The notes beneath the pieces are model-generated. The model worked only from the letters and a program-made list of their open reading frames with translations. It ran no database searches and was not told the origin of the DNA. From the IMG/VR virus record IMGVR_UViG_3300021440_000071, positions 1 through 37,359 of that record: a stretch of DNA of 37,359 nt, one strand, 5' to 3'. This stretch comes from a virus. A program made the translations under genes and the position numbers. Positions 13,705 to 37,091 of this stretch are shown piece by piece (the first letter of the stretch is position 1; the number at the start of each line of letters is the position of its first letter).

Positions 13705-14456
13705 GCCCAAAATCTTAAAAGGTTAGCATTTGAAACAGACGCTCCATCAATGGTATATCCTGTTTCTGTGAATGTGATTGTATGCCCTTCTATTATTGAC
13801 GTATCACTATCTATGTATAGATATTTAATAGTAAAGCTCCATGTGTCGCCTTCAGTCCATTCAATGTCAAATCCGTCTCCATAGGCATAAGTTTCATATC
13901 CTAGCCCTATAAGAAAACCGATTTGAGAATTAAATGGATTGTCATGTAATTCAGTCAATGGGAATCCTGTATCTTTCGTATCTGTGAAGGGGCTTTGCCA
14001 AAATAAAAGGTAATTTGAAATCGGAATACTTCTCAAAAAAGTGAGCCAATTATTATCATGCTTAAATTGCATATCAGGGTCAGTTTCAGCATACGCGGTA
14101 ATTGTATTGCGCGGTGTTAGTTGTGGGATAACTTTTTTAAAGTCCGTTGCTGTGAATGTCATTCTATCGCCTGTCGGAATATTCACACCATTGTAAATTG
14201 CTTCGGTACACTCATACGCATAACTACCTCCATTTTCTGTACACCAAAGATTTAACCATATGGTTGAATTAAACGTGGCATAGTTGGCAATGTTGCGAAT
14301 AGAATTAGCCCAAGTTTTTGAGGGTATCGAATTGAGTAAACCCTGTCGAGATACTGAACTACCGCCTTCTATTAAAAATGAATCAGTATCATCAATATTC
14401 TGTACTGATTTCGATATGTTCTTTTTTATCCTGTCTCGTCGTGTTAAACCTGCCAT
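13701..14456 (-). CDS. Putative tail fibre / receptor-binding protein
   Basis: A 251-residue protein after the tail-tip genes. The start (MAGLTRRDRIKKNISKSVQN, then DDTDSFLIEGGSSVSRQGLL) resembles short N-terminal attachment regions of Bacteroidota phage fibre proteins. The body is rich in Trp, Tyr and Thr and looks beta-rich (ends TITFTETGYTIDGASV). No enzyme motif seen. Receptor binding is inferred from position and composition. It is coupled to the nucleotidyltransferase gene by an ATGA overlap. Confidence 0.62.
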   Translation of the reverse strand: MAGLTRRDRIKKNISKSVQNIDDTDSFLIEGGSSVSRQGLLNSIPSKTWANSIRNIANYATFNSTIWLNLWCTENGGSYAYECTEAIYNGVNIPTGDRMTFTATDFKKVIPQLTPRNTITAYAETDPDMQFKHDNNWLTFLRSIPISNYLLFWQSPFTDTKDTGFPLTELHDNPFNSQIGFLIGLGYETYAYGDGFDIEWTEGDTWSFTIKYLYIDSDTSIIEGHTITFTETGYTIDGASVSNANLLRFWA

Positions 14457-36077: not shown

Positions 36078-36572
36078 TTATAGAGTTCGTAGATAGTTTA
36101 ATATATATTCTTGCGCGTATGTATAAAAACATTCAGTATTACCGCCAAATTTGTATTTAGGTTTAAATGAATCATGTGAATATTTCTTTTTTACTAAGGA
36201 TTCATTTATTAAGGCTAACTTCTTAGTACTAAAATTTTTAATAAATAATTCTGTTATTTGTAAATAATTATTTTTAAATGAAGTATATCTATTTTCGATA
36301 TTTGAAGTAATCCCTATTTTTAGGAAACATTGACCGTTTATGTTATCACTAATTTTTATAAAGTATAGTGTATGGTATAAATTTCTTTTATCAGATTTAA
36401 GAGTAATATTTTTATAAGAATTGATTAAAATATCTGTTTCTTTATTACTCGATTTATATTCTTTACCGATTGCATTTTTGATAAGCATGGTCAATAAATG
36501 ACCTCTTTGCTCTAATGTAAGTACACTTATAAAATTGTTAGTAGTTTCTACGTTTAAAATTATTTCGTTCAT
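36078..36572 (-). CDS. GIY-YIG-like (T5orf172/Mug113-type) domain protein
   Basis: I start at ATG 36572 (MNEIILNVETTNNFISVLTL); the frame is open upstream but would need two ATGs inside the hairpin. The C-terminal half has the GIY-YIG variant of T5orf172/Mug113 proteins: LYFIKISDNINGQCFLKIGI, TSNIENRYTSFKNN, later INESLVKKKY with the Glu, then KFGGNTECF. This fold gives nucleases that cut DNA, such as homing endonucleases and host-DNA or repair nucleases. The N-terminal ~65 residues are of unknown fold. It stands directly behind a promoter and structured RNA. Confidence 0.78.
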   Translation of the reverse strand: MNEIILNVETTNNFISVLTLEQRGHLLTMLIKNAIGKEYKSSNKETDILINSYKNITLKSDKRNLYHTLYFIKISDNINGQCFLKIGITSNIENRYTSFKNNYLQITELFIKNFSTKKLALINESLVKKKYSHDSFKPKYKFGGNTECFYTYAQEYILNYLRTL

Positions 36573-36573
36573 T

Positions 36574-36697
36574 GAAATAAAAACCCTTTGCGAAGCCATC
36601 CAGTGAGAACTCCATTTAAGGAGTGGATAACCCCGCAAAGGGTATTAAAATTATTTATTAATTACGGTTCTCACGCCGTTTATATGTATTAAGAACT
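36574..36697 (-). ncRNA. Structured RNA: kissing stem-loop plus long terminator-like hairpin
   Basis: Minus-strand RNA from the promoter at 36702-36733. Hairpin 1: ACGG/CCGU (36664-36679) with loop CGUGAGAA. Hairpin 2: a continuous 18-bp stem (36584-36601 with 36625-36642), CCCTTTGCG/CGCAAAGGG plus nine pairs including four G.U, and an apical hairpin ACTCC/GGAGT with a one-sided UCUCACU bulge. The 7-base GUGAGAA of loop 1 is complementary to UUCUCAC at the bulge of hairpin 2 (kissing). Hairpin 2 is followed by TTTTTATTT. The G.U pairs would be A.C mismatches on the other strand, so the RNA form is minus. Either a ~120-nt small RNA or a leader/attenuator of the GIY-YIG gene. Confidence 0.68.
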
Positions 36698-36701
36698 AAC
36701 G

Positions 36702-36733
36702 CAAATCTAACTCATTCCGATTAAATTACCAAA
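36702..36733 (-). promoter_or_regulatory. Promoter of the structured RNA / GIY-YIG gene
   Basis: Minus strand: TTTG (36733-36730), 20 bases, TAGATTTG (36709-36702): perfect match to the Bacteroidota promoter TTTG-N19..21-TAnnTTTG. Predicted start about 36696, 17 bases upstream of hairpin 1. It begins a few bases beyond the SSB-like gene's stop. Confidence 0.8.
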
Positions 36734-36734
36734 A

Positions 36735-37091
36735 TTAAAAAGGTAATCCCTCCGGTTCAACTTGCGCTGCTTGTTGCGATTGGACCAGTGCAGCTTGTGA
36801 ACTTCCATCCTTTGTAATCTGCCATAACTCCAAAGAATTGAAACACTTTTCTTCGCCTTGTGGGTTCGTCCATAATCTACCCTTTACATTTACCTTAGCC
36901 GTTACCAGGTCGCCATCGTTAATACCGTTGAGAAGGTCGCATTTGTCGTTACCTGCTTGGATTTGTAGGTATTGAGGGTAGGTATCTTCAGTCAAGATAA
37001 TAAATTCAAGTTTTCTAAACTTTTCCGATACTTGAACAATTGGGTTCTTTTTATACAGTTTACCCGATACTGTGTAGCTTTCGTTTGCCAT
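36735..37091 (-). CDS. Single-stranded DNA-binding-like protein (DUF3127-type)
   Basis: 118 residues with the plan of an OB fold: YTVSGKLYKKNPIVQVSEKF, RKLEFIILTEDTYPQYLQIQ, then GDLVTAKVNVKGRLWTN and FNSLELWQI. It resembles DUF3127-type SSB-like proteins of Bacteroidota (FkKqefvl.te..YPq.i.f....d). The flexible C-terminus ends EPEGLPF, an SSB-type acidic, hydrophobic tip that recruits partners. It binds ssDNA during phage replication (inferred). It lies just upstream of the structured-RNA promoter. Confidence 0.82.
   Translation of the reverse strand: MANESYTVSGKLYKKNPIVQVSEKFRKLEFIILTEDTYPQYLQIQAGNDKCDLLNGINDGDLVTAKVNVKGRLWTNPQGEEKCFNSLELWQITKDGSSQAALVQSQQAAQVEPEGLPF

Follow-up and report, generated by a model that had tools for sequence, protein, structure and literature searches.

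What does a promoter followed by two hairpins with complementary loops do at the boundary between two phage genes? The question is raised by the minus strand of a 37-kb tailed-phage record from IMG/VR (the whole stretch of 37,359 nucleotides analysed here is called the window), which encodes TerL, a portal protein, a major head protein, DnaB and a DUF3127 single-strand DNA-binding protein (SSB), and whose host assignment is based on promoter type and gene content. A first-pass annotation of the window had described this layout and read it as a candidate small RNA or leader switch for the GIY-YIG gene that follows. The observation as a whole is real, the layout being found as described, and it is larger than a single window could reveal; the interpretation attached to it is partly supported.

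The element spans positions 36733-36572 on the minus strand and lies between the SSB gene (36735-37091; Pfam PF11325, E 1.6e-19; PHROG 4932, E 1.5e-25) and the gene for a T5orf172/GIY-YIG-type endonuclease of 164 amino acids (36078-36572; PF10544, E 4e-4, 21.2 bits against a cut-off of 20; PHROG 681 endonuclease, E 3.9e-12), both on the same strand. The 3' end of the SSB gene (36735) abuts the promoter, which starts at once with the -33 box TTTG (36730-36733) and ends with the -7 box TAGATTTG (36702-36709). The arrangement TTTG-N20-TAGATTTG (36733-36702) is the perfect promoter originally claimed and fully matches the Bacteroidota promoter consensus TTTG/TAnnTTTG (PMC7366714), and the window holds 11 motifs of this type where 2.2 are expected. 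The stretch 12499-12380 (minus strand) also holds a full promoter, behind which a terminator hairpin (AACGTAG...CTACGTT T8) lies within about 70 nt and a second terminator hairpin soon after it; the kiss is absent there, and a further short promoter-terminator transcript is predicted.

Within the element the promoter is followed by hairpin 1 (36664-36679), which has a 4-bp stem and an 8-nt loop (ACGG-CGUGAGAA-CCGU) and a homologous hairpin in relatives, by an A/U-rich linker of 20 nt (36644-36663) and by hairpin 2 (36583-36643), which is predicted to fold at -36.6 kcal/mol and to which a U-tract, UUUUAUUUC (36574-36582), is directly attached, a U-rich tail being common in other elements as well. 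Hairpin 2 comprises 20 outer pairs, rather than the 18 first counted, with the four G.U pairs already noted, and encloses an inner hairpin (36610-36623, loop UUAAAU). Loop 1 contains the kiss segment GUGAGAA (36668-36674), a position that covaries in relatives, and the 3' bulge of hairpin 2 contains UUCUCAC (36603-36609), so that the reported 7-base complementarity between loop and bulge is borne out. The ATG of the GIY-YIG gene follows the U-tract at 36572; an in-frame ATG at 36599, nine codons upstream in the 3' arm of hairpin 2, leaves the start site of this gene uncertain.

The 134-nt strand folds at -46 kcal/mol compared with -24.4 kcal/mol for shuffled sequences (z -6.1), a value dominated by hairpin 2. 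Hairpin 1 is absent from the nested minimum-energy fold, in which UGAGAAC pairs with an upstream GUUCUUA (36690-36696; -6.0 versus -4.0 kcal/mol) that is peculiar to the window. Hairpin 1 as drawn in the first-pass annotation therefore rests on comparative evidence, namely its presence in relatives, and the kiss is not proven by the window alone. The window in fact holds an atypical element, with 22 nt between the -7 box and hairpin 1 (median 5) and a kiss in a side bulge and not in an apical loop.

An INPHARED DNA search with the window gave no match, pattern searches for the promoter or the stem gave one relative each, and the GIY-YIG protein was discarded as an anchor for relatives (it yielded just an identical copy in another contig, without variation). 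Elements were sought with a scanner that looks for a promoter, hairpin 1 and a terminator hairpin whose interior is complementary to the loop; a first, loose version returned many chance matches in A/T-rich DNA and was replaced by one with energy and geometry limits, whose matches score 33-43 where shuffles predict 0.33 matches at a score of at least 30. In sample 1 (80 loci around phage DUF3127 genes, 746 kb; fixed geometry, no promoter requirement), 35 matches were found in 32 loci, as opposed to 0-3 in eight shuffled sets, none of these with a promoter box; a box is present in 31 of the 35 elements even though the search did not require it. Sample 2 (80 loci around a DnaD-like replication protein, 389 kb), in which a few loci had already been seen (e.g., L167 is L004 and L227 is L061), gave 31 distinct matches, all in gene direction, with 0-2 in shuffles. 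Both samples were built around SSB or replication genes, and other parts of phage genomes are represented by a few whole isolates. No match was found in 38 chromosomal DUF3127 loci of the host family (126 kb), and a scan of Staphylococcus phage phi11 found no element. The DUF3127 gene is chromosomal in 393 of the 397 genomes of the family of G005, a core gene that is useful as a negative control only.

Complementarity between the two hairpins was assessed in 93 promoter-hairpin-terminator structures chosen blind to the kiss, with loops permuted over 500 rounds. A kiss of at least 6 bases occurred in 28 of the 93, compared with a mean of 2.65 (maximum 7) for permuted loops, and one of at least 7 in 17, compared with 0.82. 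Neither this test nor the two locus samples involved hand selection, whereas some matches (inside genes, of low complexity or with no gene behind) were removed by hand from the tables of architecture, ATG distance, U-tracts and kiss distinctness used below.

The kiss sequences vary freely: 37 of 38 are distinct, mostly of 6-9 bases, and complementarity is nonetheless maintained. In L003 (SSB 77% identical) the promoter, including its -7 box, is near-identical and the RNA has diverged, with GUGCAG in the loop of hairpin 1 and CUGCAC exposed by the terminator hairpin. In L004 (SSB 42% identical) the loop AAGUAGAGAG is matched over 10 bp by CUCUCUACUU of the terminator hairpin. In the Flavobacterium phage tooticki6-1 the pair is GUGAGACG/CGUCUCAC, the related mumin9 and snusmum6 carry GUGGAACG/CGUUCCAC with the rest of the RNA almost unchanged, morran9 has GUGAGAAG/CUUCUCAC, and L180 and L181 are one compensated kiss base pair apart (GCUUCUCAC/GUGAGAAGC versus GCGUCUCAC/GUGAGACGC). 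Cultivated phages with the element are Flavobacterium phages tooticki, mumin, morran and 11b and the Polaribacter phage Freya. Copies per phage range from one to three (three in snusmum6-1, one each in 11b and Freya_1), and single copies also occur in prophage-like loci of Flavobacterium and Pedobacter genomes. Where a locus holds at least two elements, a loop matches the hairpin 2 of another element over at most 4 bases and its own over 6-12; several elements of one phage can thus, judging from these sequences, act without cross-talk because each has its own kiss sequence. FpV9 and P12024L, which have the same SSB, lack a convincing element, which indicates that it is not essential to the module, and no convincing copy was found in phi13:2 (50 kb) or B124-14. 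Riemerella phage RAP44 (L127) carries two longer cousins (13721-13861, plus strand, and 30543-30427, minus strand) in which the promoter is followed by a 5' segment of 14-15 bases fully complementary to the interior of the terminator hairpin (TGTTAATCCAAGTGC/GCACTTGGATTAACA); they precede antirepressor-type genes, and the long pairing would displace hairpin 1.

Covariation in related phages, a check that the first-pass annotation had called for, argues strongly for a functional kiss. An alignment of six distinct tooticki-type sequences shows 97.9% pairing in the kissing helix, with 6 of 8 pairs changed on both sides, while slid controls leave 34-41% of cells paired. A second sub-family (14 sequences) gives 99.1% pairing, again with 6 of 8 pairs double-changed. 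For the whole structure of the first alignment there are 16 double-change pairs compared with 6.5 in shuffles (0/500), and for kiss plus hairpin 1 of the second, 42 double-change cells compared with 13.2 (0/500); related sequences are non-independent, so these shuffle counts are not probabilities, and the slid controls agree with them in direction.

The architecture of the element is regular. Across 36 elements, hairpin 1 starts a median of 5 nt behind the -7 box, approximately at the expected transcript start, and has a median stem of 5 bp and loop of 10 nt; the linker measures 19 nt, and hairpin 2 (44 nt) holds the kiss segment at its centre, flanked by 18 nt on each side. From the -7 box to the end of the element the distance is about 91 nt. 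At least four T residues are found in the 8 nt behind the stem in 30 of 35 elements, a T-run that was not demanded by the search; the low counts of the window and L069 reflect a stem end placed off register, and L011, L075 and L078 (minus strand) look like chance matches. In quality the U-tracts equal or exceed those of gene-end terminators, in keeping with the earlier description of hairpin 2 as terminator-like.

The start codon of the next gene is tied to this terminator. In 30 of 38 elements an ATG follows hairpin 2 at a distance of 8-32 nt, compared with 24 of 302 other intergenic terminators of the same loci (Fisher p 4e-21); the same holds for 23 of 31 elements of sample 2, which supports the proposed role as a switch for the downstream gene. 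Only one of the gaps between hairpin 2 and ATG contains a -7 box, and in 26 of 38 cases the stop codon of the gene before the element overlaps the -33 region or directly adjoins it. Since about 15 nt between U-tract and ATG leave no space for another promoter, the downstream gene is expected to be transcribed through hairpin 2, and a terminator placed between a promoter and a close ATG would, from this layout, be an attenuator by position. Where the ATG is about 40-60 nt away, an extra conserved segment, AACTTAATAGTT-TA-GG-AA-CTTAAAACCTTTAT, lies between terminator and start (L012 4545-4595, L004 1337-1390, L080, L023, L042, L056, L197, L177 and L168), the ATG at these loci being about 40-55 nt away and belonging to a small protein of a conserved type (MAKFELKFL...); the segment is a candidate for a second control specific to that gene, and such elements may be subject to additional regulation. 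The Rfam DUF805b RNA (RF02914) scores above gathering at L181 1484-1516, directly behind the kissing element, and at L045 8283-8314. A leader peptide was considered and rejected, as the ATG-AAG-TGA of tooticki is not conserved among relatives.

The genes behind the element are diverse, comprising GIY-YIG (the window and L108), HNH (a moomin-phage paralog), VirE/primase types, ParB/methyltransferase, DnaD-like and DUF6291-like replication proteins, SSB, ERF, SNF2-type helicase and MBL hydrolase, names that outside the window come from the annotation of the records or from reading the sequences. The element is thus not tied to one gene, and the specific link to GIY-YIG made in the first-pass annotation was not supported, relatives with the same promoter and SSB having other downstream genes. 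The element can persist at a junction whose downstream module has been replaced, as in the window versus L003, where a different (VirE/primase-type) gene lies more than 200 nt further on, and in mumin and snusmum (helicase module) versus tooticki and hemulen (primase module); the element marks junctions at which phage replication modules are exchanged. Among the moomin phages the kiss variant tracks the downstream module, GUGGAACG accompanying the helicase module and GUGAGACG the primase module (L017/L028 versus L012/L014/L015/L016/L021/L029).

The element is probably a promoter-proximal transcription attenuator and one of a large class of Bacteroidota-phage leader RNAs that had not been listed before; we read it as neither a GIY-YIG-specific leader nor merely a free sRNA. 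The host-type promoter would start a transcript that opens with or near hairpin 1 and continues through the linker to hairpin 2 and its U-tract, a predicted intrinsic terminator with the ATG of the next gene usually 8-32 nt on. Most transcripts would end there as an RNA of about 90-125 nt, in line with the promoter-driven leader of about 120 nt suggested for the window on the basis of its layout, and the fraction that reads through would serve as mRNA of the next gene or operon, with replication, recombination or nuclease genes. Less certainly, loop 1 may capture the complementary segment on its emergence from the polymerase, the kiss setting the efficiency of termination. RNA polymerase covers about 14 nt of RNA; with a median of 18 nt from the end of the kiss to the end of the stem, the kiss segment would emerge only about ten nt before the termination point, so that capture by loop 1 could precede closure of the stem and hinder it. 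We lean slightly toward a kiss that hinders closure of the terminator stem and promotes read-through over the alternative that it stabilises the terminator.

Several points speak against attenuation: expression of the downstream gene might also come from operon read-through that begins upstream, the window element deviates from the common form (late hairpin 1, bulge kiss and competing upstream pairing), the SSB is found in FpV9 and P12024L without the element, and elements with a more distant ATG and an extra conserved segment may be regulated in a further way. An own promoter, a hairpin near the 5' end, a 3' terminator and a length of about 91 nt would suit a stand-alone trans-acting sRNA, or a dual RNA such as IsrK of the Gifsy-1 prophage, whose short RNA and read-through mRNA are both active (PMC4825925), the kiss then being a compact fold or a contact with its own mRNA or a second copy. 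We regard this reading as unlikely: the ATG keeps a close distance of 8-32 nt from the terminator, all but one of 38 kiss sequences are distinct and leave no common target, and the complementary loops occupy each other within the folded RNA. Trans effects of the released RNA are possible, with IsrK as precedent.

Other readings of the two hairpins fare worse than the sRNA. That hairpin 1 lies near +1 in most elements, with a start codon close by, might point to a structural 5' leader whose kissing fold shields the 5' end of the mRNA or leaves the start region accessible, the U-tract being no more than the A/U-rich sequence at which Bacteroidota ribosomes start; this is improbable given a U-tract that adjoins the stem base and equals those of gene-end terminators in quality. 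It is more doubtful still that the element acts as a processive antiterminator, a two-hairpin RNA that stays bound to polymerase so that later terminators are ignored: its two hairpins, its location where early operons begin and its one to three copies per phage recall HK022 put, which likewise is about 70 nt with two stem-loops (PMC9378689), but put RNAs share sequence and have no direct U-tract, whereas the element is free in sequence and its second hairpin serves as the terminator. Chance complementarity, or inverted repeats in DNA that serve a protein and have no role as RNA, is the least credible reading of all; 7 bp of complementarity in A/T-rich DNA could arise by chance, which a single window could not exclude, but shuffles, loop permutation and covariation in relatives do exclude it, both stems keeping their pairing while the sequences of the relatives differ.

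Little is known of gene control in Bacteroidota phages, and the element offers a clear and testable case in cultivated phages. It looks like a widespread, undescribed RNA control over the time at which replication genes are switched on. We put it at slightly better than even that self-kissing attenuators with a free pairing sequence form a new, widespread class of RNA switch, with two or three orthogonal RNA-only timers per phage placed before replication, recombination and nuclease operons. Read as attenuators, the elements form a naturally occurring set that owes its specificity to self-complementarity alone, which is relevant both to co-transcriptional folding and to orthogonal RNA regulators.

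A literature search of open-access papers found no description of the element, and the paper on the moomin phages mentions neither promoters nor terminators (PMC7077304). No Rfam 15 family covers the element in the window or in the relatives' loci scanned; in the window, with gathering and relaxed thresholds, nothing scored above gathering and the weak miRNA and sRNA hits were noise far below the cut-off. This agrees with the earlier statement that no known riboswitch class is recognisable, and a riboswitch was rejected on the grounds that there is no conserved sequence core. The nearest known systems are intrinsic-terminator attenuators, which likewise consist of a promoter, a leader and a terminator hairpin with U-tract shortly before a start codon; the element has the same-strand upstream promoter, the hairpin with U-tract and, by position, the terminator in the leader of the controlled gene. 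It differs from them in having no recognised leader peptide, ligand core or antiterminator helix, and instead a loop-loop contact between hairpin 1 and the terminator. The phi29 packaging RNA has two complementary loops that may vary in sequence as long as complementarity is kept, and which pair between molecules in the packaging ring; both are phage RNAs with complementary, variable loops, and the element sits before replication genes. Like the element, for which both RNAs are predicted, Gifsy-1 IsrK has a prophage promoter that gives a short terminated RNA and a read-through mRNA, but it is a single locus that acts in trans on a translation start, whereas the element is a class free in sequence with an internal kiss (PMC4825925). 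HK022 put resembles it as an early-operon phage RNA of two stem-loops that affects transcription in cis, an action that is predicted for the element, and differs in having no terminator of its own at the end and a sequence shared between copies (PMC9378689); paralogous elements within one phage differ from each other and share no two-hairpin sequence core. In kissing-loop antisense attenuation of the pT181 type, loop-loop pairing controls a terminator, as is proposed for the element, and orthogonal variants are possible, but the partner is a separate antisense RNA (PMC3753616), whereas both loops of the element lie in one RNA. The element is probably an attenuator in kind, and the self-kissing terminator with free sequence is, as far as this could be tested, a new and large variant of it.
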